Source of the DNA: an uncultured Flavobacteriaceae bacterium
Lineage (GTDB): Bacteria > Bacteroidota > Bacteroidia > Flavobacteriales > Flavobacteriaceae
Assembly (NCBI GenBank): GCA_913043275.1
Contig: CAJWLL010000002.1
Span: 62,001 to 126,000 of the forward strand
DNA length: 64,000 bases
Direction: 5' to 3'
Positions 28,773 to 54,288 of this stretch are shown here, piece after piece. Within the stretch, counting starts at the first letter, position 1. Each line of letters opens with the position of its first letter. Under the pieces are notes generated by a model, which saw nothing but the letters and a program-made list of their open reading frames with translations, was not told the origin of the DNA and ran no database searches. The translations under genes were made by a program, and so were the position numbers.

Positions 28773-28783
28773 TTTAAAAAAAT

Positions 28784-29470: not shown

Positions 29471-29475
29471 TTGTT

Positions 29476-30267: not shown

Positions 30268-30283
30268 CTTATTAATCAATAAA

Positions 30284-31417: not shown

Positions 31418-31424
31418 TCTGAAA

Positions 31425-32312: not shown

Positions 32313-32316
32313 TACT

Positions 32317-33078
32317 ATGATTTGGGATAACCTTACAACGGAACAAACTGAAAAAATAAATAAAAATTTACCGGTTCTGATTTTATTATGTGCTACAGAA
32401 CAACACGGCCCTCATTTACCCCTATCCACTGACAGATTGATAGGTGAACATTTCACTCATGAACTCAATCGCCTTATAGAAGACAAGTTTATACTTCTCC
32501 CCACAGTTCCAATAGGATGCTCTGATCATCACTTGGACTTTGGAGGAACCCTTACTTTTAAACATTCCACTTTTAAAAAAATAATTCGAGAAATAGTTGA
32601 ATGCATGATTTCCCATGGATTTAAAAATTTTCTTTTTCTAAACAGCCATGGAGGAAATCAGGGAATTGGTCAAGTTATTCTTGAAATTTTAGGCAATAAG
32701 TTTCAGCATTGTCATTTCAATTTGATTACTTGGTGGAAATTGGCGAATGAGGAGCTGAAAAAATTGAACGATTCAGGGCCCGGCGGCACCGGTCATGCTG
32801 GAGAATTTGAAACCAGTCTGATGCTCTTTATTGCCCCAAAATTGGTTCATAAAGATAAGATCATCCCCCCGTCAGATCAAAAATTTGATCCTTTAATTGG
32901 CGATATGATCAATCCTCCATCAATTTCTTATTTTCAAACTATAAAGAAGATGTCGGCAAATGGAGTGGTAGGAAATCCAAATATTTCATCGATAGAAAAA
33001 GGGGAAAAGATATCTCATATCATCACTTCCAAATTATTGGATTTGATAAAAAATCTGAACTCAATTGACAAATTTTGA
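32317..33078 (+). CDS. Creatininase-family amidohydrolase
   Basis: A 253-residue protein of the creatininase / creatinine amidohydrolase family, metal-dependent enzymes that open cyclic amides or hydrolyse linear amides. Metal-binding motifs are clear: TEQHGPHLPLSTD (Glu, His, Asp), NSHGGNQG, and GHAGEFETSLM with a Glu ligand. The family also includes mycofactocin and riboflavin-pathway members, so creatinine itself need not be the substrate. Its place between a RidA fusion and a symporter suggests hydrolysis of an imported amide. The start is 4 bases after the previous stop. Confidence 0.88.
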   Translation: MIWDNLTTEQTEKINKNLPVLILLCATEQHGPHLPLSTDRLIGEHFTHELNRLIEDKFILLPTVPIGCSDHHLDFGGTLTFKHSTFKKIIREIVECMISHGFKNFLFLNSHGGNQGIGQVILEILGNKFQHCHFNLITWWKLANEELKKLNDSGPGGTGHAGEFETSLMLFIAPKLVHKDKIIPPSDQKFDPLIGDMINPPSISYFQTIKKMSANGVVGNPNISSIEKGEKISHIITSKLLDLIKNLNSIDKF

Positions 33079-34534
33079 TTTTTTTATTGATGGTTCAATT
33101 ATACTGATCTATCTCTGTTTAATTCTCATTACAGGAATTTGGTTAAAGAAATACATCTCTAATGTTGATCATTTTCTAGTGGCCAATCGAGGGGTTGACG
33201 TCTATCTTGGAATTGCAAGTTTGGCAGCGACAGAGTTTGGAATAGCAACCTGTATGGCCAATGCAGAGCTGGGATTTAAATACGGATTGAAGGGAATCAT
33301 TCCAGGAATTGCTTTGGGAGGTTCGATGTTGATTGTTGGAGTGACAGGTTTTTGCATTAAGCCGCTGAGAAACATGGCCGTCATAACTATTCCAGAACTG
33401 CTAGAAAAAAAGTTCGGTAAAAATATCAGATGGGCAAGTGGATTGGTAATTGTTATAGGAGGACTTCTCAATATGGGATTGTTCCTTCGTCAAGCGGGAA
33501 GCTTTCTGAGCATAACCATAGGAATTAATCCAGGCTATTTGGAGCTCCTTATGACCCTTGTTTTGATATTTGTAGGCTTATATACAGTCATTGGAGGTAT
33601 GGTTTCTGTCATCATTACAGATTACATCCAGTTTATCTTGATGTGTTTTGGCTTTGTCACCATCACTGGAATTTTAATCTACCAATTTGGATGGTTTCAG
33701 ATTTTAGAACAAAGCAGTTATTATCTGGGACCTAAAAGTCTAAATTTAAATGTAAATTCTGATTATGGTTTTGACAGGCTATTGTTGGACATTTTAGTTG
33801 CCTTTGGATCTGTTTTAACTTGGCAAACGATGATCTCCAGAGTTTTAGCGGCAAAAGACAGTACTACTGCAAAAAAGATTTACATGGCCACATCTCCCTA
33901 TATGTTAATGCGCTTTGTGATTCCCGTATTTCTTGGGATCAGTGCCCTTTATTATTTTGGTCCTGACACCTATGTTGGGGGGGAAGAAATCTTAGCCATG
34001 CCCAATATGATTGCACAGTTGATGCCCGTTGGATTGATTGGGATTGTCATCGCTTCCATGCTGGCTGCCGATATGTCCACCAACTCCTCTTATCTCATTG
34101 CGTGGTCTTCAGTCATCTATAATGATATTTTAGAACCTATTCATAAAAACAAGTGGTCATCCAAAAAAGGACTGTTTTATAACAGGATGCTTATATGTTT
34201 AATCGGTCTGTTTCTGTTGCTTTATGGATTATGGTATCCATTGAGTAACGACTTGTGGGTCTATATGCAAGTCACAGGAACAATCTATTTGTCAAGTATG
34301 AGCGTTATTTTGATTGCTTCTTGTTACTTCAAAAATGCCAGCCCCTTGGGTGCAGGGATGTCAATCGTCATTGGGGCTTCCATACCTGTATCCTATTTAT
34401 TACTTCAAGAATTTTCATTTTCTTCCGACATTGTGAAAAATATCGGCCCATATAAATTTGGAGTATTTAGCTTCTTTATGAGTGGCTTGGGCATGTCTAT
34501 TGGTTCTCTCATCACTAAAATCAAATCAAAATGA
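33065..34534 (+). CDS. Sodium:solute symporter (SSS family)
   Basis: A 489-residue Na+-coupled importer of the SSS family with about 13-14 helices. Family features are the early VDHFLVANRG segment, ASLAATEFGIATCM, TVIGGMVSVIITDYIQF and MLAADMSTNSSYLIAW (Na2-site region). The start is a TTG at 33065, overlapping the previous gene by 14 bases; no ATG precedes the first helix. It is coupled by an ATGA overlap to a tiny membrane protein gene. It probably imports the substrate for the enzymes upstream. Confidence 0.9.
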   Translation: MTNFDFFIDGSIILIYLCLILITGIWLKKYISNVDHFLVANRGVDVYLGIASLAATEFGIATCMANAELGFKYGLKGIIPGIALGGSMLIVGVTGFCIKPLRNMAVITIPELLEKKFGKNIRWASGLVIVIGGLLNMGLFLRQAGSFLSITIGINPGYLELLMTLVLIFVGLYTVIGGMVSVIITDYIQFILMCFGFVTITGILIYQFGWFQILEQSSYYLGPKSLNLNVNSDYGFDRLLLDILVAFGSVLTWQTMISRVLAAKDSTTAKKIYMATSPYMLMRFVIPVFLGISALYYFGPDTYVGGEEILAMPNMIAQLMPVGLIGIVIASMLAADMSTNSSYLIAWSSVIYNDILEPIHKNKWSSKKGLFYNRMLICLIGLFLLLYGLWYPLSNDLWVYMQVTGTIYLSSMSVILIASCYFKNASPLGAGMSIVIGASIPVSYLLLQEFSFSSDIVKNIGPYKFGVFSFFMSGLGMSIGSLITKIKSK

Positions 34535-38129: not shown

Positions 38130-39239
38130 TTATATCGCTGTGTTTCTTTTTCTTGCGGGGACCTCCCAAAACCCATTAAATTTTTGATTTTCAATAACTG
38201 CCAGTTGATCATAAAGGTTAACCGTCGGGCAAATATGGAACGGGATAGCTAGAAATTTTTCTCCCACTTTGTAAATAGAAGCATCTGGAACTAAGATAAC
38301 CAAGTGCTCTTCATACTGGGATAAAATCTCATACTCTGGTATATCAGCGAAAAATAGTCGAGGCTGAGGAGGATCTGAAGCGACAGCCTTATAGCCAAGG
38401 TCAAAGCACAGCGTTCTCGATGTGGGTTTTGATATGATTCGCGTTAATATCAGCGCAGCAGGTTTAAAGGGAAGCTCAGGAAAAGCTTTTCCATAACCAT
38501 AATCCCATAAGAAAAATGTTCCAGGGCTGCATGATACATCAGATTTTTTGGCATAAAATGGGAATGATGGTGAACCGCCCAAAACCAGATGAAGTTTTCT
38601 GCTCAGGCTTGCCTGGACAATGTCTTTTAGCTCCAAAAGCTTTTGAAAGATTTCCTCAGTATCTTTTTTTCTTAGTTCCTGATCTGAATCATGAACATGT
38701 CCATCGTAAGAATGAAGACCTACTATGGTCAAACCTTTAAGTTGATTTATTTTTTCTACTAAATCGGGAACTTTATTAATTGACAGACCGGTTCTATTCA
38801 TACCAACATCTACATCAATATAAACTTCAACAGAGGTTCCATTAAAATAGTCAAAAAGCATTTTTGCAGAGTCGAAGTTGTCAACAACCGTGGCAAAGGA
38901 TGTTGCTTGATAATAAGATTTCATTGCCGCTAAGGGTTCCATTTTATCTTCGGTCATCTGATAACAGATAAGAGCATGTTCTGCACCCACCATTCCCAAT
39001 AATTCAGCCTCGACTATTGTGCTGCATTTGAAGCTTCGAATTCCCCTTTGCATTGCCATATAAAGTGGCTCTTTGCTTTTAATAGTCTTTACATGTGGGT
39101 ATAAAAAGCTGTTTTCCCCCGATATAAGTTTAAGCGCATTGTCAATGTTATCTCCTATAATACTTGGATAGACCAAAAGAGAGGGGGAGTTTATTTGATG
39201 GGAATTATTGAAATAATAGGGTGAAGTATCTGGAATCAT
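38130..39239 (-). CDS. D-threonine aldolase / D-serine dehydratase-like PLP enzyme
   Basis: A 369-residue fold-type III PLP enzyme (alanine-racemase-like barrel) of the D-threonine aldolase / DSD1 group. The PLP lysine is in YPHVKTIKS. DVDVGMNRTG and LHSYDGHVHD are family barrel segments. HICPTVNLYDQ near the C terminus supplies the His-x-Cys metal site that marks the D-threonine aldolase and D-serine dehydratase branch. It probably acts on a D-beta-hydroxy amino acid. The next genes (RidA, class III aminotransferase, hydroxy-acid dehydrogenase) fit such chemistry. It lies 2 bases after the RidA stop. Confidence 0.88.
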   Translation of the reverse strand: MIPDTSPYYFNNSHQINSPSLLVYPSIIGDNIDNALKLISGENSFLYPHVKTIKSKEPLYMAMQRGIRSFKCSTIVEAELLGMVGAEHALICYQMTEDKMEPLAAMKSYYQATSFATVVDNFDSAKMLFDYFNGTSVEVYIDVDVGMNRTGLSINKVPDLVEKINQLKGLTIVGLHSYDGHVHDSDQELRKKDTEEIFQKLLELKDIVQASLSRKLHLVLGGSPSFPFYAKKSDVSCSPGTFFLWDYGYGKAFPELPFKPAALILTRIISKPTSRTLCFDLGYKAVASDPPQPRLFFADIPEYEILSQYEEHLVILVPDASIYKVGEKFLAIPFHICPTVNLYDQLAVIENQKFNGFWEVPARKRNTAI

Positions 39240-42611: not shown

Positions 42612-43862
42612 CTAATCCTCTCCAATAGCAACATCTAAAATTCTACCTCTTATACTCAAACGGTAAAGGTTCTTTTGTTCTCGGGTGGGATATACCCTGT
42701 TGGAAAGAAAAATCATAAAACACTTATGAATAGGATCTATCCATACTAAATTCCCGGTAAATCCACTGTGACCAAAACTTTCTGGGGCACATTTTTCAGA
42801 GGGATATCGTTCTGAGGGGATGGTGTCCAGGGTAGGCTTATCAAAGCCTAGGCCTCTTCGGTTGTTCGTTTCAGGATAGGCACGTGAGCTAAAGAGTTCA
42901 AGAGTTTCTGGTTTTAAATATTGTTTTCCTTCGAACTGCCCACCATTGAGAAACATTTCCAGTAATTTGGCCAATGAAGAAGCATTGGCAAACAATCCGG
43001 CATTTCCTGAAACTCCTCCCATCAGACCAGCGGCCTCATCGTGAACCCAACCGTGCACCAATGTATTTCTAAAAAGGGAATCCTTTTCGGTGGGGACGAT
43101 TTCTGCCTTTGGATAATCAAAACTGGGGTTAAAAGTCAATCGCTCTATACCCATGGGGTCGTAAAAATACCTGTCCAAAAAAGCATCAAAGGGTTGTCCA
43201 CTTATTTCTTGTATCATATCTGGTAAAAGAAAAAAAAGTAAGCCTGAATAGCGGTATTGCCCAATTTTTTCGACAGGAGTCCTTTTAATTCTTCGCATTA
43301 TTTTCTTCTCATATTTTCTATGAATAAATAGAGAGTCAGTGAGATGATCAGGATAACGTTTACTTTGCGAAGGGGAAAGGGTTCTGGCTTTCATTTTTCC
43401 ATTTTTACGTCTCACAGTATTCTGATGTTCAATATAGGGTAACCATCCGGCTTGGTGGCTTAGGACTTCTCTAAAAGTGGAATTTTTTTTATTGCTGTTT
43501 TTGATAAGAGGAATGTAGTCCGAAACCTTTTGGTCCAATTCAACCTCGTAGAGTTCATATAACTTCATAAAGGCCAAGGTACTGGCCATAATTTTGGTTA
43601 CTGAAGCTAGGTCATATAGATGGTGGTTTTCTACACGAACAATGGAATCATAGGTGTGGAATCCGTAGCTTTTATTCAGCCGGATGCTATCATTTTTAAA
43701 AACCAATACTTGTGCGCCTGGATAGGCTTTTTGTTGAATACCTATTTGGACAATGGAGTCAATTTTATATTCTAGAGCATCATTAAGGTTTTTTGAAAGC
43801 GTTTCTTGTCCACGAAGTAAAACAGTACTCACCATTGAAAAAAGGAAAATCACTTTTTTCAT
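42612..43862 (-). CDS. Exported serine hydrolase, class C beta-lactamase family
   Basis: A 416-residue penicillin-binding-protein-like serine hydrolase. The Sec signal is VIFLFSMVSTVLLRGQ. Active-site motifs are SVTK (SxxK) in LASVTKIMAS, YRYSG (YxS) and HSGFTG (HxG). These proteins are typically esterases, D-aminopeptidases or amidases; antibiotic resistance is not implied. It is the last gene of the exported-enzyme operon and may cleave an ester or D-amino amide of the substrate in the periplasm. The start is the ATG at 43862. Confidence 0.92.
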   Translation of the reverse strand: MKKVIFLFSMVSTVLLRGQETLSKNLNDALEYKIDSIVQIGIQQKAYPGAQVLVFKNDSIRLNKSYGFHTYDSIVRVENHHLYDLASVTKIMASTLAFMKLYELYEVELDQKVSDYIPLIKNSNKKNSTFREVLSHQAGWLPYIEHQNTVRRKNGKMKARTLSPSQSKRYPDHLTDSLFIHRKYEKKIMRRIKRTPVEKIGQYRYSGLLFFLLPDMIQEISGQPFDAFLDRYFYDPMGIERLTFNPSFDYPKAEIVPTEKDSLFRNTLVHGWVHDEAAGLMGGVSGNAGLFANASSLAKLLEMFLNGGQFEGKQYLKPETLELFSSRAYPETNNRRGLGFDKPTLDTIPSERYPSEKCAPESFGHSGFTGNLVWIDPIHKCFMIFLSNRVYPTREQKNLYRLSIRGRILDVAIGED

Positions 43863-43873
43863 AAACCTGTTTC

Positions 43874-44434
43874 TTATTCAATTTCAACAATAAGGTCAAT
43901 CTCTACCGCAATATTGAATGGCAAAGACACCATTCCTACTGCAGCTCGGGTGTGTTTTCCCCTTTCACCAAATACAGCAACCATAAGGTCAGAAAAACCA
44001 TTAACCACACTGGGGTGTTGTTTAAAGTCGGGATCAGCATTAACCATGCCTGTGACTCTAATGATTCTTTTGACTCTGCTTAGATCACCCAATGTACTTT
44101 TAAGTACGCCGATTTGATTAATGCCAGTTAGTCGAGCAGCTTCGTATCCCTCCTCAATGGTAAGATCCGATCCCACCTTACCGGTTATAAATTTTCCATC
44201 CGGTTTTTTAGGACCGTTGCCCGAAAGGAAAAGTAAATTTCCGACTTGAACAGTATTAACAAAATTTGCAACAGGAACAGCAGGTTGGGGAAGTACGATT
44301 CCCATACTGTCCAGTTTGGCTTCCGGATTGAAATCAGATTTGACTTTAACGATTTTGTTTTGTGCTTGGGGAGACCCACAGGATACAAGGGTAAGCCCAA
44401 AACCAAAAATTAATAAATACAAAGTTTTTTTCAT
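43874..44434 (-). CDS. RidA-family lipoprotein
   Basis: A 186-residue RidA-family protein with a lipoprotein signal ending in LTLVSCGSPQ, so it is anchored outside the inner membrane. The RidA domain (about 60-186) has NTVQVGNLLFLSGNGP, RVTGMVNADPDF and the conserved Arg in HTRAAVGMVSLP before VEIDLIVEI. It resembles the RidA branch that lacks the short N-terminal YSxA stretch. Export of a RidA protein is unusual, since the known role is in the cytoplasm beside PLP enzymes; here the next gene encodes an exported PLP enzyme. Confidence 0.9.
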   Translation of the reverse strand: MKKTLYLLIFGFGLTLVSCGSPQAQNKIVKVKSDFNPEAKLDSMGIVLPQPAVPVANFVNTVQVGNLLFLSGNGPKKPDGKFITGKVGSDLTIEEGYEAARLTGINQIGVLKSTLGDLSRVKRIIRVTGMVNADPDFKQHPSVVNGFSDLMVAVFGERGKHTRAAVGMVSLPFNIAVEIDLIVEIE

Positions 44435-44443
44435 AATTTTTTT

Positions 44444-45664
44444 TTAAACGACTGATGATAAAATTTCTTTAACCCTCTTAGCAACGATACGCTCTTGACC
44501 GGGTACCATCATCCAAGTGGTTATGCCCACACTTTTAGAATCTCCCACAGTTTGAATAGAAGGGTGGCCCTCTGTGAGTTGTTTGCGCAATTCGTTCGGA
44601 CTTACTTTCACCTTCTTTTCATCCCAATGAATGCGTAAACTTGGCACGTGGTTGGCGTATTTCGGTACGTGAATTTCGGTTTCCACTCCTTCTATTGAGG
44701 TTGCACTGTCACTAATCAATTGAATTTGTGATTCCCACATTTTCCATTCCTTGACATGATCTTTTTGCAGGTACAATTCCAGAGCAGCTAACATTCCCAA
44801 TACTTCTTCTTTGTTGACCTTCATGCCCCTAGCGATGGTCTCTCCACGTGGAGGGGTATGCATTCGTGCTGCCTCTATATACTCTCTTTTTCCTAAAAGT
44901 AAACCGGCACTTTGCGGCCCTCTCAATCCTTTACCACCGGAGAAAGCGACCAAGTCAAATCCCATTTTGGTAAAGCGAAATAGATTTTCAACTGGCGGTA
45001 CATCTGCTGCACAGTCGATAAAAGTGGGGATGTTATGTTTTTTCCCAAGAGCAACGAACTCTTTCCATTTGATTTCTCCCTGATCAGTATTAGCATTAAG
45101 AAACCAAAGCATACAGGTTTTGTCTGTGATCTTCTTTTCCAATTGTTTGGCAGTTTTTACTTTGATCAACTTGGCACCAACATTAGTAAGTGCTTGGGCA
45201 TATCCGATCGTGTGAGATTCTTGAATGATGACTTCATTCCTCATGCCCTGTGTATTAGGAAGTTGTTTGACTTTTTCAGGATCCTTGCCGGTTAGTATTC
45301 CAGCCATTCCTATGCTCATAGCACCAAAACATCCGGAGGAAACTGTTGCGTATTCGCATTCTAACAATTCAGCAATACGTTCTCCTACCTTGTCCTGCAA
45401 GTCATCTAGATTGACGTATTCATCTGCTCCATAGCTAATGGCTTCAATGACTTCTTTGGGCATCAAACAGCCTGTCATTGAGGTATAGGTTCCAGCGGCA
45501 TTAATAAATGTTCTTAGTCCAAGTTCTTTAAAAAAATTGCGTCTTAAACTGGAGACTACTACTGCGGAATTGGGTTGAGCAGACAGTGTTTTAATCCCAA
45601 GTAAACTTCCTGCAAAGGGAAGGGTGGCAAGTGATTGGAGGACTTTTCTTCGATTAATCATCAT
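44444..45664 (-). CDS. SelA-like PLP enzyme with twin-arginine signal
   Basis: A 406-residue fold-type I PLP enzyme of the SelA / D-glucosaminate-6-phosphate ammonia-lyase-like group. The N terminus (INRRKVLQSLATLPFAGSL, then SAQ) looks like a Tat signal, which would export the protein folded with its cofactor. The domain has TFINAAGTYTSMTGCLMP, a cofactor-binding VSSGCFGAMSIGMAG stretch, FIDCAADVPP and the PLP lysine in FSGGKGLRGPQSAG. Selenocysteine synthesis is not plausible outside the cytoplasm. An ammonia-lyase or similar elimination on a 2-amino acid is likely. Two RidA genes flank it. Confidence 0.88.
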   Translation of the reverse strand: MMINRRKVLQSLATLPFAGSLLGIKTLSAQPNSAVVVSSLRRNFFKELGLRTFINAAGTYTSMTGCLMPKEVIEAISYGADEYVNLDDLQDKVGERIAELLECEYATVSSGCFGAMSIGMAGILTGKDPEKVKQLPNTQGMRNEVIIQESHTIGYAQALTNVGAKLIKVKTAKQLEKKITDKTCMLWFLNANTDQGEIKWKEFVALGKKHNIPTFIDCAADVPPVENLFRFTKMGFDLVAFSGGKGLRGPQSAGLLLGKREYIEAARMHTPPRGETIARGMKVNKEEVLGMLAALELYLQKDHVKEWKMWESQIQLISDSATSIEGVETEIHVPKYANHVPSLRIHWDEKKVKVSPNELRKQLTEGHPSIQTVGDSKSVGITTWMMVPGQERIVAKRVKEILSSVV

Positions 45665-45680
45665 TTTTTAATTTTTAAGT

Positions 45681-46145
45681 TTAATCTACAGCAGCAATAC
45701 AATCAATTTCTACCAATGAATCACCGGGAACACCGCCGTATGTAGCTACTGTAGTTCTTACCGGTGGATTTTCACCAAAACGACCTCTGTAAACTTCGTT
45801 CATTTTGTGATAGTCTGCTAAATCAGCCAAATAAACATTGACTTTTAAAACTTTTTCCATTGAAGATCCATTTTTCTCAAGTTCCTCTTCTATGACGTTT
45901 AGTACATGATTGGTATGTGCTTTAATGTCACCATCAAAGTGAGCCCCTTTTCCTGCTATATATAGAGTATTTCCATGCTTAACTGCACCAGAAAATAATG
46001 GGATTTCTTGATCTTCGATAATTTCTCCTACCACCTCTTTTTTACTTTTTGAATTTGCAGCATTTACTGAGCTTAAACCAAAAAGGCCTGCCATACCGAT
46101 ACCGATATTTTTTATTATTGATCTTCTTTTTTCGTTGTGTTTCAT
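45681..46145 (-). CDS. RidA-family protein with twin-arginine-like signal
   Basis: A 154-residue RidA protein whose N terminus (EKRRSIIKNIGIGMAGLFG, then VNAA) resembles a Tat signal. The RidA domain (about 42-154) has LFSGAVKHGNTLYIAGKG, VNVYLADLADYHKMN and the catalytic Arg in PVRTTVATYG before VEIDCIAAV. It lies 16 bases before the SelA-like PLP gene and has the same kind of export signal, which suggests both are sent to the periplasm. It would hydrolyse enamine products of that enzyme. Confidence 0.9.
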   Translation of the reverse strand: MKHNEKRRSIIKNIGIGMAGLFGLSSVNAANSKSKKEVVGEIIEDQEIPLFSGAVKHGNTLYIAGKGAHFDGDIKAHTNHVLNVIEEELEKNGSSMEKVLKVNVYLADLADYHKMNEVYRGRFGENPPVRTTVATYGGVPGDSLVEIDCIAAVD

Positions 46146-46171
46146 CTTTTTTACATTTTAATTATTAATTT

Positions 46172-47104
46172 TTACCACATTCTCTTTTTAATTAATTCTT
46201 TTATTTGGTCTCTGGGAACAGGAAGCTCATCTATATGATACCTAATCCACTTGGAAAAATCTTTTTCAATTTCATCTGACCATTTGTTGTCAATTTGCCC
46301 TGGAGTATATATACCCTCTTTTAACCGGGAGATACCAAATAAATCTCTAAGCCTTACTACCTCAGAGGTAACTACGACTTTCTCTGCCAAGTGGGCAGGG
46401 ATAAAAATCACTCCTTCTTTTTTGGCCAAAACTACATCGCCGGGCATGACAGTAGCTGCTCCTATTCTTATCGGATCGTTGATGCTTAACAACATAACTT
46501 CCGTAAGAAATGAAGGGTGCCAAGCCCTGACAAAAGCATTAAAGCCTTCGATTTCAGATAGGCCTTCCATGTCTCTGCTAGAGGCATTAAACACAACACC
46601 TGTTTTGGATTTGGCATAAATGGAATTCCCCAGATTGTCTCCGATCAGCGTTCCATCTATAATTTTACCAAAGCCATCAGCAACATATACGTCGTGTTCT
46701 AATAATCGGTCGATGGGCCAGGAGTTGGTGTTCCCAATTTCTCCAGCTTTTAAACCTTTTTGTTTGATCTGATCAGCAACATCGGGTCTGTTGGGCATGT
46801 ATTGTACGGTAAGTGCCCGACCCACAACGGTTACGTCATCGTGTAAGGGTTGCCATCCTCCCTCAAATTGGTTATGAAAACCTTCATTTCTCAAAACACC
46901 CCATGCCTCTTCTATGGTTACTTTTTTCATCCGTTTAAGGATGTCCAAAGCTACTTTGGGCCTTCCATCTTCAAAACGTTCTCCTTCCCAATGGTGGGTT
47001 AAAAATTTCATTTGATCGACACTCAGGTTTTGGGCAAATCCATTGTAGATGGTCAGTACACAAGTTAAAAGAAAAGTAACAACAGTTAATTTTTTAAAGA
47101 TCAT
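46172..47104 (-). CDS. Exported RraA-family aldolase-like protein
   Basis: A 310-residue RraA-family protein with a Sec signal (TVVTFLLTCVLTIYNGFAQ). The core has VVFNASSRDMEG where cytoplasmic relatives have DGxxRD: Arg-Asp is kept and the preceding Asp-Gly is changed to Asn-Ala. GDVVLAKKEGVIFIP is the second family stretch. The protein is longer than usual at both ends. If active, it would cleave a 4-hydroxy-2-oxoacid to pyruvate in the periplasm. I use the ATG at 47104; the frame from 47152 overlaps the transporter gene and hides the signal. Confidence 0.87.
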   Translation of the reverse strand: MIFKKLTVVTFLLTCVLTIYNGFAQNLSVDQMKFLTHHWEGERFEDGRPKVALDILKRMKKVTIEEAWGVLRNEGFHNQFEGGWQPLHDDVTVVGRALTVQYMPNRPDVADQIKQKGLKAGEIGNTNSWPIDRLLEHDVYVADGFGKIIDGTLIGDNLGNSIYAKSKTGVVFNASSRDMEGLSEIEGFNAFVRAWHPSFLTEVMLLSINDPIRIGAATVMPGDVVLAKKEGVIFIPAHLAEKVVVTSEVVRLRDLFGISRLKEGIYTPGQIDNKWSDEIEKDFSKWIRYHIDELPVPRDQIKELIKKRMW

Positions 47105-47120
47105 TTGATTAAAATTTAAA

Positions 47121-48206
47121 TTAATTATTAATTTTTTCAGGGTCTTTGTCACGCCACCAAGTAGCCAAAGAAGAACCGGAAATGTTCATCCAAGGGCCAA
47201 AAACGGCCGGGGCCAGTCCAACAGTGGATACCTTGCCCATCTCAAGAGCAATTCCTGAGGCCAATCCTCCATTTTGCATTCCTACCTCTAGTGCAATGGT
47301 TCGACAGTCTTGTTCTCTCATTTTTAGTAATCTGCAACCCCAGTAACCCAGTAAATAACCCAATAAATTGTGTATTATTGCAGCAAGTATAAGTAAGATC
47401 CCAATGGATAAAAGTGAGTCTCTTCCTGCTGCGGTTATGATCACAATGATCAAAGTAATGGCAGTCATCGAAACAATAGGCATGGCTTTGTCCAGCCATT
47501 TGGCTTTGCCATGAAAAAAGTGATTGAAAACCAAACCCAGAATTACGGGAAGAATTACCATTTTTACAATACTGAGCATCATGGCAACAAAATCAATAGG
47601 AACAAATGCTCCCGCAAAGTATTTCATTAAAAAGGGGGTCATAAATGGTGCTAGTAAAGTGGCTACTGCTGTTAGTGTTACCGAAAGAGCAACATTTGCT
47701 TTTGCCAAGTAGGCCATTACATTGGAAGCCAATCCACTAGGGGAGGAACCAATTAGGACTACTCCTGCTGCGATCTCAGCCGGGAAATTGAATAAGGTCG
47801 CCAGAGTAAAACCCAAAAAGGGCATGATACTGAATTGACAAACAAGACCGACTAAAACTCCTTTGGGCATTTTTATAACACCATAGAAGTCATTAAAACT
47901 CATAGCAGTTCCCATTCCAAACATGATGATTTGAAGGAGTGGAACAATGAGTTTTTTGAGTTGAAAATCACCCAATTGTACAAAAGTTTGAGGATAAAAA
48001 AGAGAAAGACTTACGGCAGTAAAAATTAGTACGGTAAAGGAAAATCCCTTTAAGTTTTGTGTACCTCTCATACCCAGTGCCAAAGTTAGAAAGAACAAAA
48101 TCAGTGGTGGCCCAATCATGGCAATATTACCAGAAAAATAAAGTACAATGGAAAGGATAAACATCAAGCCTGTTAAAGCAAAAAAATATTTAGAAATTGT
48201 TTTCAT
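47121..48206 (-). CDS. BASS-family (bile acid:sodium symporter-like) importer
   Basis: A 361-residue Na+-coupled transporter of the BASS/SBF family with about ten helices. Features are MFGMGTAMSFNDF, the IGSSPSGLASNVMAYLAKA sodium-site crossover helix and EVGMQNGGLASGIALEMG. Bacterial and plant members move pyruvate, other 2-keto acids and organic anions. Between an exported deacetylase and an exported aldolase, import of a keto-acid end product is a fitting role. Its ATG overlaps the deacetylase stop by 4 bases. Confidence 0.92.
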   Translation of the reverse strand: MKTISKYFFALTGLMFILSIVLYFSGNIAMIGPPLILFFLTLALGMRGTQNLKGFSFTVLIFTAVSLSLFYPQTFVQLGDFQLKKLIVPLLQIIMFGMGTAMSFNDFYGVIKMPKGVLVGLVCQFSIMPFLGFTLATLFNFPAEIAAGVVLIGSSPSGLASNVMAYLAKANVALSVTLTAVATLLAPFMTPFLMKYFAGAFVPIDFVAMMLSIVKMVILPVILGLVFNHFFHGKAKWLDKAMPIVSMTAITLIIVIITAAGRDSLLSIGILLILAAIIHNLLGYLLGYWGCRLLKMREQDCRTIALEVGMQNGGLASGIALEMGKVSTVGLAPAVFGPWMNISGSSLATWWRDKDPEKINN

Positions 48207-49450
48207 TTAATTTTCCAATCATTGCTGGCCAATCCGTTTAAGTCATATACTACATTTCCATCTCTTAGGGTCAATTCACATTCTATTTTCTGGTTTCCTT
48301 TCATTCTTTTTCCTCTGGTATCAATAAAACCAAAATCTCCTTTTCTTATTTTAAGCACAGCAACATCTGCAATCGCTCCGAGGGACAAGTGACCAATGTC
48401 TTTTCTTTGCAAGTATTTGGCAGGGTTGGAAGTGGTGGCTGCAATGATTTCTTGAATACTTAGTCCAATATTTAAAAATTTGGACATCACATTGTTGATA
48501 TTCTTCATTCCCCCATTCATACTACCCGTGTGAAGGTCAGTACTAATTGCATTGGGTTTGAGTCCTTGTTTTATAGCTGGAATGGCTTGCTCAAAAAGAA
48601 AGCTTCCTCCTCCGTGTCCGACATCAAAAACAATTCCCCTTTTTTGAGCCTCAAAAATATAATCTCTTACTTTTCCATTTTCGGCGACTATTGGCGTTCT
48701 TCCATTTACATGCGCATAGGTATGGGTGAAAATATCCCCGGGTCTAAGTTTTTCCAGGAGTAACTTATCCAAAGGTAGTTCGGGATTACTTCCTCCAAAA
48801 TCAATCATAACAGGAATACTTGCCAATCTTCCAGCTTCTGTAACAATATCGGTCGGGGTCCAATCAAAACCCATGAAATGTGCCAGTTTGATTCCAACCA
48901 CATGATCTTTATTTTGCCTAGCTACTAAGGCAGTCATTTTAGGATTCATGTCGTCAATATTTTGTTCCCATGCTCCACCACTCATACCTACTCCAATAAT
49001 ATTGAGAAAGGAAAGGACTCGGGTTTTGGACTGGTCAATGACTTGGGATTTAAAAAGCTCAAAATTTTTCCAACCGGCTCCTCCTACATCGACAATTGTA
49101 GTAACACCTGAACGGAATGTAAAACCATCAGGTGCCAAGGCGGTAAAACTATTACTTAAATATCGATTGGGAACCGTACCGTGAAAGTTGTGACTGTGCA
49201 TATCAATGAGTCCCGGACTGACAATCATGCCCGATGCATCCACCACTTTTTTGGCTTGAGTGGCAGGAATATTATTTTTTATGGCTGCAATTTTCCCTCC
49301 TTTAACAGCGATATCCATTACCTGATCGATTTCATTTGCAGGGTCGATTAAATGGCCCCCTTTAATGACAATATCATAGCTCTGAGACATGAGTGCAGTA
49401 CTCATCATTATTAGTATTACAAAATATAATTTTGATTTTCTCATATACAT
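48203..49450 (-). CDS. Exported amidohydrolase/deacetylase (COG3964-like)
   Basis: A 415-residue amidohydrolase-superfamily enzyme with a Sec signal (FVILIMMSTALMSQ). Metal-binding residues are in GLIDMHSHN (HxH), a likely bridging Lys in VGIKLAHF, THTYAHVNG, DVGHGGGS and the Asp in ISTDLHTG. This matches the branch annotated as amidohydrolase/deacetylase (COG3964), whose members hydrolyse N-acyl or O-acyl groups and, as I recall, are often encoded beside SelA-like PLP enzymes, as here. ATGs at 49450 and 49444 are both possible. It overlaps the BASS gene. Confidence 0.9.
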   Translation of the reverse strand: MYMRKSKLYFVILIMMSTALMSQSYDIVIKGGHLIDPANEIDQVMDIAVKGGKIAAIKNNIPATQAKKVVDASGMIVSPGLIDMHSHNFHGTVPNRYLSNSFTALAPDGFTFRSGVTTIVDVGGAGWKNFELFKSQVIDQSKTRVLSFLNIIGVGMSGGAWEQNIDDMNPKMTALVARQNKDHVVGIKLAHFMGFDWTPTDIVTEAGRLASIPVMIDFGGSNPELPLDKLLLEKLRPGDIFTHTYAHVNGRTPIVAENGKVRDYIFEAQKRGIVFDVGHGGGSFLFEQAIPAIKQGLKPNAISTDLHTGSMNGGMKNINNVMSKFLNIGLSIQEIIAATTSNPAKYLQRKDIGHLSLGAIADVAVLKIRKGDFGFIDTRGKRMKGNQKIECELTLRDGNVVYDLNGLASNDWKIK

Positions 49451-49466
49451 TCGTTTAAGTTACAAT

Positions 49467-51215
49467 TTATTGTGTTTCTTTTTTGTTTGATTTTCTAAAA
49501 TTTTCTACCTCTTCAGGCAAAATACTTTGGGCTTGATTACCAAAGTTGGTTCTAATATAGGTCAGCACATCTGCAATTTGATCATCATTCAAAAACGAGT
49601 GTTGAGGCATCACACCATCATAAATTTCTCCATTTACTTCAATGATTCCTTCCATTCCGTTAAGGATAATTTTCGTCAATCGTTCTTTATTTCCCGTTAC
49701 CCAATCAGTCCCATTAAGGGGTGGAAATCTTCCCGAGGTTCCCATGCCGTTAGATTGATGGCACGCCATACAGTATTGGTTATAAATTTTCTGACCAATG
49801 GCCATGTTTTTGGGTTCAATTCTATCTGTTACAATATCAGGAGTTCTTATATGGCTTAAAGTTTTTCTTTCTTGCATTTCGGCCAGTTGTGATGGGCCAA
49901 AGTTTTTAATATCTCCTTTAAATTGTACCTTCCAAATCCTGCCTTTTTCAGTTTCCCCAATATACATTGAGCCATCGGGAGCAAAGGCTATACCCATGGG
50001 GCGAAATTTTGCATCTCTTGTATTAACGATAGGGTCTATCCCTGAGAAACCATCGGCAAAAACTTCATAGGGTCCGGAGGGTTTACCATTTTCAAACGGG
50101 ACAAAACCAATAAAATAACTGGATTGGGGGTAGGGTGCCCTGTTGGTAGAACCATGAAAAGCGATAAAAGCTCCATTTTTATAGTGATTCGGAAATCCAT
50201 CACCATCATAAAAGACTAAATCGTTTGGAGCCCAATGACCTGGAAACCCAATCACAGGGTCTTTGTAGCCTGAACAGCGACCAATAATGGTTCCATCACC
50301 ACCATATTCTGGGGCCAGTACTTTTTTGCCTTGCATTTGATCGTAAAAGCAGTAAGGCCAACCAAAGTGATCCCCTTTTTCTATTTTAACAAATTCCTCT
50401 GATGGGAGAAGAGCACTTTCCCATTGGCTAAAGTGATTTGGCCACAGCCGGTGTAAATCATCTCTTCCATGCACTACTGCATAAAGGTTTTGATCGGAAG
50501 TATTCCAGTCCAATGCCACGATGCTTCTTAGTCCGGTGGCATAAAATTCACCGTCTTTTTGGGTTTGCCCTATTTTTTCTGCATCAAAACGCCATATACC
50601 ACCGTGATCCTCCAATAAAGGGCAGGGATCTTGGCCTGGTGCCAATGGAGTTCTCTTGGGGTTTTGGCAGGCGTTATTGGGAGCGCCAAATGGAACAAAA
50701 ATATGTCCTTTTTCATCAAAGGCAATCGGCTTAGCAATGTGTTCGTGCGAGCCGTGAGCATGATCATCATGGACAATTATTTCTGCCGCTCCACTTGGAA
50801 CAAGCTTTTTGTCATCCAACTTGACTCTATAAACGGTGAGTTGAGAACTGAAGTATAGGTATCCTTTGTATATTCTTGCTGCAGTTGAATAACTTCCTCT
50901 TTGTAGCATATGGTATTCCCCAAACTTCACTAAAGAGTCTGCAACCCCGTCATTATTTAAGTCTCTTATGGCAGCCATTACTCCTGCTTCGCTGGGCCGT
51001 TTGAATTTGGCGTACAAGTCTCCATTTTTATTAACAGCCATATGGCGAACAGTTTCACTGATACTGTCCACATAAACAGTTGCTTCAAAGCCTTGGGGAA
51101 GGTAAAGTTTTGCCTTGGTATTCGAACTTTCACAACTCAAAATTGTCACCAACAAAAACAAGTTTAGTATTCCAAATTTGCTAAGGATAAAATTTATAAT
51201 TCTATCAATTCTCAC
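49467..51215 (-). CDS. PQQ-type sugar dehydrogenase-like protein fused to cytochrome c
   Basis: A 582-residue exported protein with a lipoprotein signal (LVTILSCESS). Residues ~35-430 form a six-bladed propeller of the soluble glucose / L-sorbosone dehydrogenase type (GLRSIVALDWN, EEFVKIEKGDHFGWPYC, FRPMGIAFAPDGSMYIGE). About 470-560 are a cytochrome c domain with CMACH and a likely Met ligand in GVMPQHSFL. PQQ-dependent oxidation of a sugar or aldehyde with electron transfer to the haem is expected. The start is GTG at 51215. Electrons could pass to the act-cox chain. Confidence 0.88.
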   Translation of the reverse strand: MRIDRIINFILSKFGILNLFLLVTILSCESSNTKAKLYLPQGFEATVYVDSISETVRHMAVNKNGDLYAKFKRPSEAGVMAAIRDLNNDGVADSLVKFGEYHMLQRGSYSTAARIYKGYLYFSSQLTVYRVKLDDKKLVPSGAAEIIVHDDHAHGSHEHIAKPIAFDEKGHIFVPFGAPNNACQNPKRTPLAPGQDPCPLLEDHGGIWRFDAEKIGQTQKDGEFYATGLRSIVALDWNTSDQNLYAVVHGRDDLHRLWPNHFSQWESALLPSEEFVKIEKGDHFGWPYCFYDQMQGKKVLAPEYGGDGTIIGRCSGYKDPVIGFPGHWAPNDLVFYDGDGFPNHYKNGAFIAFHGSTNRAPYPQSSYFIGFVPFENGKPSGPYEVFADGFSGIDPIVNTRDAKFRPMGIAFAPDGSMYIGETEKGRIWKVQFKGDIKNFGPSQLAEMQERKTLSHIRTPDIVTDRIEPKNMAIGQKIYNQYCMACHQSNGMGTSGRFPPLNGTDWVTGNKERLTKIILNGMEGIIEVNGEIYDGVMPQHSFLNDDQIADVLTYIRTNFGNQAQSILPEEVENFRKSNKKETQ

Positions 51216-51234
51216 TATCAGTTTTTGTTATAAT

Positions 51235-51954
51235 TTATTGAAAATTTAAAATTCCAAAATGTTCGGGACGGTGAAAATCGGGCTTTGGTGTTTTGACTTG
51301 GTTCCAGCTTAAATAATGGAGTTTAGAGGTGTCGTCTCCACATTTATAAAAGTTGGCATTGGAAACCAGTTTAGAAAAACTTAATCCATCACTATAGGTA
51401 AAAATAGAGGAAGGGATGACCACCACCATTTCCCATTCAAAAATTCCCGATTTTTCTTCAAAAGATTCTTCGCCTAGGGTGGACCAGATTTTGATTTCAT
51501 TTTCTATTAATTCAGGAGGGATAAAAGTTCGTTTTCCTCGGCCAGGGCCATAGGCAAGGTGTGTAGTGCCGATACAGTTAAATTCGAAATTGTAATAATT
51601 TCCGTTTTGAAGCGGATCTATAAAAAACTCCACGCAACTGTCTCTGTGAACTGCCGAATTGGAATCCGTTCTTTGGGCTAAGATATGTTCTTCTTTTATG
51701 TAATACTTAAGAAACAAAAGGCTATCATCGTGTGCGATTCTGAAATTCACTTCAGGTTGATAGGGGAATTCCTTCCATTCCAACCAATTAATTTTATTGA
51801 GCAATGTATTTTCCTCGAGAGCGATTGAGATATTTTCATAACTCAAGAAGTTCTTGATAGAAATTTTTGGAACGTCAATACTTTGGCTTTTCATGTCTGA
51901 ACAGCTCCATAATAAGATTAAGATTATAAAGCTAATTAACTTAAATTTGATCAT
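51235..51954 (-). CDS. Lipoprotein with carbohydrate-binding family 9-like domain
   Basis: A 239-residue lipoprotein (signal ending in LILLWSCSDM). It has one domain resembling carbohydrate-binding module family 9-like proteins (NFRIAHDDSLLFLKYYI, VHRDSCVEFFIDP, YYNFEFNCIGT and the closing FHRPEHFG). Stand-alone members are thought to bind sugars in the periplasm. It is the first gene of the exported-enzyme operon, 19 bases before the PQQ-type dehydrogenase, and is divergent from the SMP-30 gene across only 30-40 bases, so the two units probably share control. Confidence 0.85.
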   Translation of the reverse strand: MIKFKLISFIILILLWSCSDMKSQSIDVPKISIKNFLSYENISIALEENTLLNKINWLEWKEFPYQPEVNFRIAHDDSLLFLKYYIKEEHILAQRTDSNSAVHRDSCVEFFIDPLQNGNYYNFEFNCIGTTHLAYGPGRGKRTFIPPELIENEIKIWSTLGEESFEEKSGIFEWEMVVVIPSSIFTYSDGLSFSKLVSNANFYKCGDDTSKLHYLSWNQVKTPKPDFHRPEHFGILNFQ

Positions 51955-51993
51955 AGTTTAAATTTAAATTAATTAATTTACAAATTGAAATTT

Positions 51994-52890
51994 ATGCTTA
52001 TGAAAACTCCAATTTTAATAACACTTATATTAATATTAGTATTTTGTGGTTCATGTGACAAAAAAGAAGTGCAGTATCAATCTAGGGATTTAGTCTTTGT
52101 AGGGGAATTTACAACAGGACTTGAGGGACCGGCGGTTGACCAAGAGGGCAATCTCTATTTTGTTAACCCCACTCACAGTGGTTCTGTTGGTAAGGTTGAC
52201 ACTGAGGGAAATTTTAGTTTGTTTATTGAACACTTACCTGAAGGAAGTACTGCCAATGGAATACGATTTGGTCAAGATCAAAGTATGTATCTGGCAGATT
52301 ATACTGGACACAATGTTTTGAAAGTGAATCTACTAACAAAAGAGGTAAGTGTATATGCGCACGATTCATTGCTGAATCAGCCGAATGACTTGGCGATCTG
52401 TTGTAATGACAGAATGTTTGCCTCAGACCCCAATTGGAAAGAAAGTACGGGTCAGCTTTGGAGAGTTGAAAATGGTCAATTTCACCTTTTGGCCAAAGAT
52501 ATGGGAACCACTAATGGGGTGGAGGTAAGCCCTGATGGGAAAACCCTGTACGTTAATGAGAGTGCTCAAAAAAAAGTCTGGGCTTTTGACTTGGACCCCC
52601 AAGGAAATATTTCCAACAAAAGACTTTTCCATCAATTTGATGATTTTGGAATGGATGGAATGCGCTGCGATGTAGAAGGGAATTTATACGTCACAAGATA
52701 TGGTAAAGGAACTGTGGCCAAGTTATCCTCTGAAGGAATACTTTTATTAGAGGTTCAGACCAAAGGTAAAAAGCCTTCCAATATCACCTTTGGAGGTAAA
52801 GATGGTAAAACAGCCTACATTACGTTACAAGATCGAGGTTATATTGAAACTTTTAGGGTAGAAAAAGCGGGTAGGTCATTTGTGAATTAG
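51994..52890 (+). CDS. SMP-30/gluconolactonase-family lipoprotein
   Basis: A 298-residue lipoprotein (signal ending in LVFCGSCDKKE) with a six-bladed propeller of the SMP-30/gluconolactonase/LRE family. Metal ligands are visible: Glu in LEGPAVD, Asn in QPNDLAI, and Asp in FGMDGMRCD. The likely reaction is hydrolysis of a sugar lactone in the periplasm, the product expected from the divergent PQQ-type dehydrogenase. The frame opens at TTG 51985; the ATGs at 51994 and 52000 are better starts, and I list the first. Confidence 0.87.
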   Translation: MLMKTPILITLILILVFCGSCDKKEVQYQSRDLVFVGEFTTGLEGPAVDQEGNLYFVNPTHSGSVGKVDTEGNFSLFIEHLPEGSTANGIRFGQDQSMYLADYTGHNVLKVNLLTKEVSVYAHDSLLNQPNDLAICCNDRMFASDPNWKESTGQLWRVENGQFHLLAKDMGTTNGVEVSPDGKTLYVNESAQKKVWAFDLDPQGNISNKRLFHQFDDFGMDGMRCDVEGNLYVTRYGKGTVAKLSSEGILLLEVQTKGKKPSNITFGGKDGKTAYITLQDRGYIETFRVEKAGRSFVN

Positions 52891-53118: not shown

Positions 53119-54288
53119 ATGAATTTCACCTCTTTCTCAGCATTGTATTTGAAAGAGTTGACCCATGAGGTAATCCCCTTTTGGGAAAAATACAGTATCG
53201 ACCATAAATATGGTGGTTTTTTTACCTGTATTGACTCTAACCACCGGGTTTATGACACCGATAAATTCGTTTGGTTACAAGCGCGACAAGTATGGACATT
53301 CGCCACCATGTACGACCAATTTGAAAAAAATGAATCTTGGCTGAAAATGGCTCAGTTGGGGAGCGACTTTTTAGTGAAATACGGTCATGACGGGGCTTAT
53401 AATTGGTTTTTTTCTCTCAAAAGAGATGGTCAGCCCTTGGTGATGCCCTATAACATTTTTTCTTACACTTTTGCCTGCATGGCCATGGGAAAAATGCATC
53501 AGATCACCGGAGAAGAAAAGTACAAAACAGCTGTGGATCAAACTTTGAAAAAAATCACCCAAAGGATGGTAAAACCTAAAGATCGTTGGGACAAATCTTA
53601 TCCAGATGCACGGCCTCTCAAAAACTTTGCCTTACCCATGATCCTTTGCAATCTTTATAACGAACTGGGAGATTTGGTACCGGAAGAGGAAAAAAAACAA
53701 TGCATCTATAGTTATGTTAACGAAATATTTGATCTCTTCTGGGATGATAAAAGAGGCGTAATTCTAGAAAACATATCCCCTGACGGTGGCTTTTCTGATA
53801 GCTTTGATGGCCGTCTGGTCAACCCTGGTCATGGTCTGGAGGCCATGTGGTTTATTATGGAATTGGGGGTACAATTTGACCGTAAGAACTGGATTGAACG
53901 ATCTGTTGAAATGGCCTTGTCTATTGTCGAAAAAGGTTGGGACAAAGAACAAGAGGGTATTTTTTATTTTTTGGATGCTGAGGGGCATCCACCGCAAAAG
54001 TTAGAATGGGATCAAAAATTGTGGTGGGTTCATTTGGAGGCAATGATTTGTTTGCTCAAAGGATATGAATTAACAGCTTCAAAAGCATGTTGGGATTGGT
54101 TCGAAACTATCCATCGCTATACTTGGCAGCATTTTAGAGACATAAAACGAGGAGGGGAGTGGTATGGCTATTTAAATCGATCTGGTGAGCAATTGCTAAA
54201 TTTGAAAGGAGGGAAATGGAAGGGCTGTTTTCACGTGCCCCGTGCCTTGAGCCAACTCTATAAAATTTCCGAAAGACTAAAAATATAA
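53119..54288 (+). CDS. AGE-family (N-acylglucosamine 2-epimerase-like) epimerase/isomerase
   Basis: A 389-residue (alpha/alpha)6-barrel protein of the AGE family. Members interconvert N-acetylglucosamine/N-acetylmannosamine, mannose/glucose or cellobiose derivatives. Family features are KFVWLQARQVWTFATMYD, NPGHGLEAMWFIMELG (catalytic His) and the closing GCFHVPRALSQLY. There is no signal peptide, so it is cytoplasmic. It follows a symporter remnant. An amino-sugar or mannose substrate is possible but is not fixed by sequence. Confidence 0.9.
   Translation: MNFTSFSALYLKELTHEVIPFWEKYSIDHKYGGFFTCIDSNHRVYDTDKFVWLQARQVWTFATMYDQFEKNESWLKMAQLGSDFLVKYGHDGAYNWFFSLKRDGQPLVMPYNIFSYTFACMAMGKMHQITGEEKYKTAVDQTLKKITQRMVKPKDRWDKSYPDARPLKNFALPMILCNLYNELGDLVPEEEKKQCIYSYVNEIFDLFWDDKRGVILENISPDGGFSDSFDGRLVNPGHGLEAMWFIMELGVQFDRKNWIERSVEMALSIVEKGWDKEQEGIFYFLDAEGHPPQKLEWDQKLWWVHLEAMICLLKGYELTASKACWDWFETIHRYTWQHFRDIKRGGEWYGYLNRSGEQLLNLKGGKWKGCFHVPRALSQLYKISERLKI

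Follow-up and report, generated by a model that had tools for sequence, protein, structure and literature searches.

Why would a bacterium send an enzyme dependent on pyridoxal 5'-phosphate (PLP) out of its cytoplasm together with two proteins of the RidA family? The question is raised by the stretch of DNA that we analysed, 64,000 nucleotides of contig CAJWLL010000002.1 from an uncultured Flavobacteriaceae bacterium (the window), in which nine collinear genes on the minus strand run from 51954 down to 42612 and an SMP-30 lipoprotein gene diverges from them on the plus strand at 51985-52890. Every enzyme of this cluster carries a predicted export signal. We propose, with moderate confidence, that the products of the cluster degrade an N-acetylated 2-amino sugar outside the cytoplasm and without phosphorylation, the substrate most likely being an N-acetylglucosamine (GlcNAc)-type hexosamine or the corresponding aldonic acid. 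What can be seen directly in the sequences, and what this proposal is built on, are the protein families, the conserved residues, the predicted signals, the co-conservation and the membership of one exported clade.

The nine genes form a compact unit. From 51954 downward they are spaced by 19, 16, -4, 16, 26, 16, 9 and 11 bases when the RraA start is set at ATG 47104; the RraA frame also opens at GTG 47152, and ATG 47104 yields a clean signal peptide. The spacing of 9-26 bases or a 4-base overlap given in a preliminary description of the locus is thus confirmed, and Pfam and NCBIfam profile matches agree with its family assignments for the nine genes and the SMP-30 neighbour. That description also left room for the genes not being conserved together in other genomes, and they are so conserved. 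Among the 32 homologous loci whose flanks reach 9 kb or more on each side of the PLP gene (full-flank loci), the deacetylase is present in 30, RidA in 31, the dehydrogenase in 23, RraA, BASS and CBM9 in 21 each and SMP-30 in 7. These counts identify the deacetylase, the PLP enzyme and RidA as the core, to which oxidation, aldol and import modules are variably added. Since the same genes recur together in homologous loci, mostly in the same order, the gene set is real and conserved and represents more than a chance cluster.

The order dehydrogenase - deacetylase - BASS - RraA - RidA1 - PLP enzyme - RidA2 is shared by many Flavobacteriaceae loci; Mucilaginibacter and its relatives have RidA1 - PLP enzyme - deacetylase - RraA - BASS, to which locus L052 adds dehydrogenase - SMP-30. 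Cultured relatives in which the cluster occurs include Ulvibacterium marinum, Flagellimonas onchidii, Arenibacter and Mucilaginibacter. The SMP-30 gene is divergent in 11 loci (L014 being cut by a contig end) and collinear in L052. The serine hydrolase adjoins RidA2 in 6 of 57 loci (L003-L007 and L013) and is a lineage-specific addition. In the vicinity of the cluster we also observed TRAP transporter genes in five loci (DctP by Pfam), SusC/SusD-like genes in 16-17 loci (read from the sequences) and the sulfatase family in 10 loci, including that of a second copy in the source genome. Five Arenibacter clusters (L033-L036 and L042), which keep the deacetylase, the PLP enzyme and the RidA2 lipoprotein and have no RidA1, RraA or BASS, are a natural minimal version. 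At the other extreme, a single Daejeonella cluster (L046) holds three SelA-like genes, two deacetylases and two RidA genes, and these paralogues may differ in substrate.

The preliminary description placed export signals on all products but the transporter, and our predictions agree for all of the enzymes. Signals were called with a crude rule of our own, a hydrophobic stretch with or without a twin-arginine (RR) motif, omitting genes cut by contig ends. The homologue set comprised 57 loci, 54 of which supplied 57 complete SelA-like copies (two in L041, three in L046). Six of six positive controls passed the hydrophobic rule, as did 3 of the 16 window proteins used as negatives. The RR motif together with a hydrophobic stretch was found in 57 of 57 complete PLP enzymes and 40 of 41 complete RidA1 homologues. 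This combination is specific because only 19 of 387 other open reading frames (ORFs) in the same loci, with start codons chosen slightly differently, passed the same test. In many copies the motif reads [S/T/N]-RR-K-x-L-K, which we take to agree with the consensus of twin-arginine translocation (Tat). Signals were also called in 12 of 12 SMP-30 homologues and in 7 of 7 serine hydrolases, one of which is a distant homologue in L025. On the strength of these predictions, it is very probable that the PLP enzyme and its RidA partners are exported.

The PLP enzyme is related to DgaE, and we do not call it DgaE because it falls below both family cut-offs (193.1 versus 385.3 bits for TIGR01437; 162.7 versus 600 bits for NF047797). 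Its best solved relative by sequence is the Salmonella enzyme DGL (7lc0, 119.3 bits), which also ranked first in a fold search with the model of the PLP enzyme (TMt 0.85). K245, D217 and H151 are present in 59 of 59 aligned copies, and the PLP lysine is aligned in all 76 rows of the PLP tree. This tree, a quick search without bootstraps from which L013, L050 and L084 were left out, resolves into DgaE proper, an alpha/beta-proteobacterial group, a haloarchaeal group and the exported clade; a long-branch and odd-composition warning concerns chiefly the outer groups, whose mutual placing is unsure. The exported clade has an SH-aLRT value of 100, holds 57 of the 76 rows, Granulicella included, and spans Bacteroidota and Acidobacteriota.

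The active site of the exported enzymes is also distinct. In DGL, according to its report, a manually docked phosphate lies near Arg301, Arg332 and Arg346, C3 receives its proton from His163, and the enamine is released by the H163A mutant (PMC9529869). None of the 56 exported rows (the window, L003-L058 less two truncated ones, and L060) has the His162/163 pair (HH) or an arginine at position 301 or 332; in five near relatives of the window enzyme, one His of the pair aligns (HT). DgaE proper has HH (AH in Bartonella) and Arg301, and Arg332 is kept in the five rows that reach that far. The haloarchaeal group has lost HH and Arg, with RidA in three of five loci. A substrate without phosphate would fit the exported enzymes because the arginines near the docked phosphate of DGL are lost, and the loss of the arginines and of HH together seems to agree with an unphosphorylated substrate and release of the enamine.

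The gene neighbourhoods, taken within 6 kb of the PLP gene and leaving out L059 (a fragment) and L083 (a weak match), show that a RidA neighbour goes with the absence of KDGP aldolase, in lineages that are not independent, so that we attach no probability to the pattern. KDGP aldolase is present in 5 of 5 and RidA in 0 of 5 of the DgaE-proper plasmid loci; in the remaining 15 plasmid loci KDGP aldolase is found in none and RidA in 12, and in the exported loci L003-L058 RidA is found in 50 of 56 and KDGP aldolase in 0 of 56. The plasmid loci were 21 hand-picked, non-random examples from 240 + 196 matching records, and L082, L078 and L085, which are unannotated, were read via ORFs and profiles.

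In the other enzymes we checked residues chosen from family knowledge. RidA1 has R130 and E146 in 43 of 43 aligned copies and RidA2 has R163 and E178 in 36 of 36, which we take to be the catalytic arginine and glutamate of the RidA family. Both proteins pass the Pfam Ribonuc_L-PSP cut-off and score 66.4 and 26.4 bits with TIGR00004 (Rid family detoxifying hydrolase), below its cut-off of 106.25. RraA carries D172-X20-R193-D194 in 35 of 35 copies, presumably the D-X20-R-D motif of RraA-like class II pyruvate aldolases. Of six presumed metal-site residues checked in the deacetylase, five (H85, H87, K188, H243 and D305) are conserved in 45 of 45 copies; among solved structures this enzyme is closest to 8je0 (1e-58), and its match to PpOngB covers only residues 22-93 (E 2.6e-5). 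E47, N134 and D224 of SMP-30 are found in 12 of 12, and CxxCH of the dehydrogenase in 31 of 33, the other two having a gap.

From this evidence we infer the substrate, the reaction order and the cellular localisation as follows. The cytochrome-c-fused dehydrogenase would oxidise the sugar to a lactone, passing electrons to the respiratory chain, and the SMP-30 lipoprotein would open the lactone to the aldonate, at which loci without a dehydrogenase may begin. The COG3964 deacetylase would then remove acetate to leave the free 2-amino-aldonate, from which the Tat-exported DgaE-like PLP enzyme would eliminate water, giving the enamine/imine of 2-keto-3-deoxygluconate (KDG). Exported RidA1 and RidA2 would hydrolyse this intermediate to KDG and ammonia; RraA, where present, would cleave KDG to pyruvate and glyceraldehyde, and the keto acid would be imported via BASS or, in some relatives, perhaps via TRAP transporters. 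Export by Tat would be sensible if PLP is loaded in the cytoplasm, and an enamine kept outside would presumably spare the cytoplasmic PLP enzymes. We consider the amino-aldonate chemistry probable. More tentatively, at a confidence slightly short of even, the complete route may lie outside the cytoplasm, including PLP deamination, RidA quenching and aldol cleavage, with only the keto acid imported, and may have a single origin by export of a DgaE-like enzyme and have spread over Bacteroidota and Acidobacteriota.

A hexosamine is favoured by the gene neighbourhoods, among them that of a second PLP copy in the source genome with its sulfatase and heparinase-like genes. This copy (L060, contig C38) is 71-72% identical, carries an RR signal and has as neighbours two flanking deacetylases, a GSDH dehydrogenase, a sulfatase with SGSH_C and a heparinase II/III-like enzyme. 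In haloarchaea, the PLP gene of Halosolutus adjoins a Rid protein, glucose 1-dehydrogenase, a lactonase and a PIG-L deacetylase, that of Haladaptatus occurs with a PIG-L deacetylase, glucose 1-dehydrogenase and Rid, and that of Haloprofundus with Rid and Gfo/Idh oxidoreductases. Two further haloarchaeal PLP genes have no RidA: that of Haloarcula occurs with an N-acylglucosamine 2-epimerase (AGE)-family gene and a PL8-type lyase, and that of Halomontanus is accompanied by genes for D-aminoacylase and a PIG-L deacetylase and by heparinase II/III-like genes. The Granulicella locus comprises RraA, the PLP gene, RidA, a second PLP gene, a deacetylase, a lactonase and a BBE-type flavin-dependent (FAD) oxidase; by eye, the N-termini of the PLP proteins, RidA and lactonase are Tat-like, those of RraA and the deacetylase are Sec-like, and the FAD oxidase has none. 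The haloarchaeal and Granulicella neighbourhoods show that the slots of sugar oxidation, lactone opening and deacetylation are filled by differing protein families. In addition to these loci, a weak Sinorhizobium relative sits among methyltransferases with no RidA, and in two Rhizobium loci (L079 and L104) the surroundings of the PLP enzyme and RidA include a gene with an allantoicase/ureidoglycine aminohydrolase annotation, so that the substrate of the cytoplasmic sister group may be a different one.

The source genome itself has five matches each to GH20 and heparinase II/III. Since one NagB-like and two KDPG aldolase matches were found elsewhere in it, a cytoplasmic hexosamine route may exist there too. 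Oxidised chitin, the product of LPMO activity, was considered as a source and set aside because LPMO10 gave no match in this genome, which is 88% complete.

The same exported module could instead act on an N-acylated D-amino acid or a peptide-derived hydroxy amino acid, in which case the PLP enzyme would be a dehydratase of the D-serine/threonine type, and the roles of the dehydrogenase and lactonase would lie elsewhere. COG3964 enzymes bear a generic deacetylase annotation, one haloarchaeal relative has a D-aminoacylase next to it, as noted above, and the ABC importers paired with alphaproteobacterial relatives are annotated without sugar specificity. Moreover, OngC, the PLP enzyme of the cytoplasmic Ong route, also deaminates D-serine and D-threonine according to its report (PMC9537276). 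However, the closest characterised enzyme acts on glucosaminate-6-phosphate, and a sugar dehydrogenase, a lactonase, CBM9 and RraA cluster with the PLP gene, with heparinase-like and sulfatase genes added at the second copy. We therefore regard an amino acid substrate as unlikely.

Several observations weigh against the proposed hexosamine route. Of the 32 full-flank loci, 11 have no RraA, 11 no BASS and 9 no dehydrogenase. The oxidation, lactone opening, deacylation, PLP elimination and RidA steps named in the preliminary description stand as a set; its aldol cleavage is better seen as optional, because RraA is so often absent, and RraA-less loci may import the keto acid whole. No RidA lies nearby in 6 of 56 exported loci (L040, L044, L045, L047, L049 and L050, among which L040, L045 and L050 have short flanks), and none was found on the 10.6-kb contig of the second PLP copy of the source genome. 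H279 of the deacetylase is His in 37 of 45 copies and Tyr in eight Sphingobacteria-type copies, one COG3964 copy each in L046, L049, L052, L053 and L055-L058, and this exchange may change the metal site or the substrate. PqqE was not found in the 88% complete source genome, and the cofactor of the dehydrogenase is thus ambiguous, uptake of pyrroloquinoline quinone (PQQ) being a possible supply. The alpha/beta-proteobacterial enzymes, eight of eight, keep HH, Arg301 and Arg332 yet adjoin RidA without KDGP aldolase, so the arginines are no clean mark of phosphorylated substrates. Loss of His163, the proton donor of DGL, would suit the exported clade as the reason for a RidA partner and was likewise rejected as a general rule, since this group keeps HH yet has RidA. 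The crude hydrophobic rule alone is unspecific for Sec signals, as 247 of 387 other locus ORFs pass it, and the second nearest fold to the PLP enzyme, Cap15, is titled oxygen- and PLP-dependent, which is a different chemistry.

If the PLP enzyme were oxygen-dependent like Cap15, the operon would oxidise an amino acid derivative in the periplasm and RidA would remove the resulting imine. Imines are RidA substrates, and Cap15 (8t7j) ranks second both by sequence and by fold (TMt 0.84). On the other hand, 7lc0 scores higher by sequence (119.3 versus 92.6 bits), and the frequent pairing with a deacetylase and the aldolase in many loci fit elimination to a keto acid better, which makes a Cap15-like oxidation very unlikely. 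Least probable of all is that the RR and Sec-like stretches anchor the proteins in the membrane or reflect wrongly called starts, with the PLP and RidA steps in the cytoplasm as in the Ong and DgaE routes: the signals do come from a crude predictor, but few control ORFs pass the combined test, the PLP enzyme has a ~40-residue N-terminal extension relative to DGL in which R5 and R6 are conserved throughout a set of 20 diverse rows, residues 1-40 of its AlphaFold model have very low confidence while the remainder is mostly confident, a signal-like extension is absent in 15 of 15 annotated PLP relatives outside the exported clade (L108, one of the 15, has RR inside the start of the catalytic domain, without a hydrophobic stretch), and TatC is encoded in the same genome (216.7 bits).

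Table 1. Genes of the cluster and its divergent flank, with coordinates in the window and the matches that identify them; signal counts refer to homologues.
Feature	Coordinates	Strand	Evidence
CBM9_2 lipoprotein (carbohydrate-binding domain)	51235..51954	-	PF16011 219.6 bits; lipobox-like WSCS by eye; predicted signal in 24/25 complete homologues
GSDH-type sugar dehydrogenase fused to cytochrome c, lipoprotein	49467..51215	-	PF07995 49.0 bits, PF00034 48.7 bits; predicted signal in 31/32
COG3964/PRK09237 amidohydrolase-deacetylase, Sec-type signal	48203..49450	-	PRK09237 443.9 bits (cut-off 371); predicted signal in 45/45
BASS/PanS-like inner-membrane importer, organic anion	47121..48206	-	SBF 139.4 bits; best NCBIfam match PanS-like, 258.1 bits, below cut-off 400
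RraA-like class II pyruvate aldolase, Sec-type signal	46172..47104	-	PF03737 61.3 bits; predicted signal in 25/25 complete
RidA1, Tat-type signal	45681..46145	-	PF01042 (Ribonuc_L-PSP) 76.1 bits; RR in 40/41
DgaE/SelA-like PLP enzyme, Tat-type signal at about residues 1-30	44444..45664	-	SelA 43.4 bits, TIGR01437 193.1 bits; Lys245, Asp217, His151; RR signal in 57/57
RidA2 lipoprotein, YjgF_endoribonc subfamily	43874..44434	-	PF14588 87.2 bits; predicted signal in 34/34, lipobox-like in 31/34
Exported serine hydrolase (beta-lactamase/PBP4B-like)	42612..43862	-	PF00144 (Beta-lactamase) 148.8 bits; lineage-specific addition
SMP-30/gluconolactonase lipoprotein, divergent	51985..52890	+	PF08450 (SGL) 136.6 bits; nearest solved relative SMP-30 family 7plb
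AGE-family (N-acylglucosamine 2-epimerase-like) gene, possible accessory	53119..54288	+	PF07221 219.3 bits

A homologue of the AGE-family gene lies at most 10 kb from the cluster in three Ulvibacterium-type loci (L018-L020). Beyond the nine-gene cluster, a 249-base gap is followed by an MFS transporter gene and a ceramidase-like gene. Promoter and terminator scans gave no clear excess over shuffles (29 versus 29.2 and 11 versus 9.6), and a tRNA scan gave no match. The source genome is Flavobacteriaceae-like, with 2.01 Mb in 64 contigs, and its closest named relatives by the PLP protein are Flavobacteriaceae and Bacteroidetes metagenome-assembled genomes at 90-92% identity. Elsewhere in the window, a separate plus-strand cluster at 28017-34534 contains SDR, RraA-like, SDR, MR/MLE enolase, RidA-fusion, creatininase and SSS-like symporter genes (four assigned by profile, the rest by eye) and is possibly another RidA-linked route for a sugar acid or amide. 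On the minus strand beyond the operon, a fold-type III PLP protein (Ala_racemase_N + D-ser_dehydrat) at 38130-39239 is followed or preceded in its run by genes for a class-III aminotransferase, 3HCDH and an M19 dipeptidase; OngC is reported to be a distant relative of enzymes of this kind.

Enamine-releasing PLP chemistry is regarded as dangerous to the cytoplasm, where RidA guards against it; work to this effect is cited in PMC9529869. If the proposed pathway is correct, exporting the enzyme together with its guard would be a second solution, in which the hazard is moved out. It would also suggest why RidA genes, OngD among them, accompany non-phosphorylative clusters for amino acids and amino sugar acids in several phyla, and part of the marine amino-sugar nitrogen would be freed as ammonia outside the degrading cell.

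How, then, does the window cluster compare with known systems? Periplasmic direct oxidation, in which a PQQ dehydrogenase converts glucose to gluconate, is similar in that an exported dehydrogenase and lactonase use the substrate outside the cytoplasm, whereas the window route appears to go on via deacetylation, deamination and aldol cleavage. PvdN of pyoverdine maturation is likewise a PLP enzyme exported by Tat; however, it is biosynthetic rather than catabolic and belongs to another PLP subfamily, and we know of no RidA partner of PvdN.

The DgaE loci on plasmids of Niallia, Priestia, Lacticaseibacillus, Klebsiella and Bartonella share the PLP family with the window cluster and, in four of five, an adjoining deacetylase of the same family. 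Unlike the window cluster, they have no signal, a phosphorylated substrate and KDGP aldolase in place of RidA, and they retain the histidine pair (AH in Bartonella) and Arg301/332. The phosphorylated substrate has been shown for Salmonella in the report on DGL (PMC9529869), and for the plasmid loci we infer it from PTS-type or SFCGS-type genes and a sugar kinase. The clusters of Rhizobium, Ensifer, Phyllobacterium, Aminobacter, Palleronia, Thalassospira and Paraburkholderia resemble the window in having a RidA gene adjacent to the PLP gene in eight of eight, a COG3964 deacetylase in four of eight and no KDGP aldolase, and in the six annotated clusters the RidA is of the RidA2 kind by eye. They differ in having no signals, in keeping HH and the arginines and, in the annotated ones, in import by ABC transporters.

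The Ong route of Pseudoalteromonas prydzensis is closest in logic. According to its report, OngB deacetylates GlcNAc1A, the fold-type III PLP enzyme OngC produces KDG and ammonia, the RidA protein OngD is required for growth in a role called unknown, and KdgK phosphorylates KDG; OngB and OngC are predicted to be cytoplasmic, and the complete pathway is reported there in Gammaproteobacteria and one betaproteobacterium (PMC9537276). Ong and the window cluster share the combination of deacetylase, PLP deaminase and RidA, and the Ong substrate is a non-phosphorylated N-acetylated amino sugar acid. In contrast, Ong uses a fold-type III PLP enzyme and a D-aminoacylase-like deacetylase where the window has SelA/DgaE-like and COG3964 enzymes, and it relies on inner-membrane import by SSS and passes KDG to KdgK, whereas the window cluster has an RraA-like aldolase and adds a sugar dehydrogenase and a lactonase. 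No kinase is present among the nine genes, and no genome search for a KDG kinase was made. The Ong enzymes are predicted to be cytoplasmic, in contrast to the predicted export signals of the window enzymes. Because of these other PLP and deacetylase families, the export signals and the extra oxidation and aldolase genes, the window cluster is not a member of the Ong system.

The preliminary description called the pathway unfamiliar, and in open-licence full texts we found no account of RidA export, of a PLP step outside the cytoplasm or of a pathway of the window type; its chemistry, however, is familiar from the cytoplasmic Ong route (PMC9537276), a counterpart that the description did not name. 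The pathway outlined there is plausible and has gained support. In summary, judging by its protein families and predicted signals, the window cluster stands as an exported relative beside two routes, that of DgaE by protein family and that of Ong by logic, and is a member of neither. The underlying chemistry is known, and the new part appears to be the predicted export of PLP/RidA chemistry hitherto described as intracellular.

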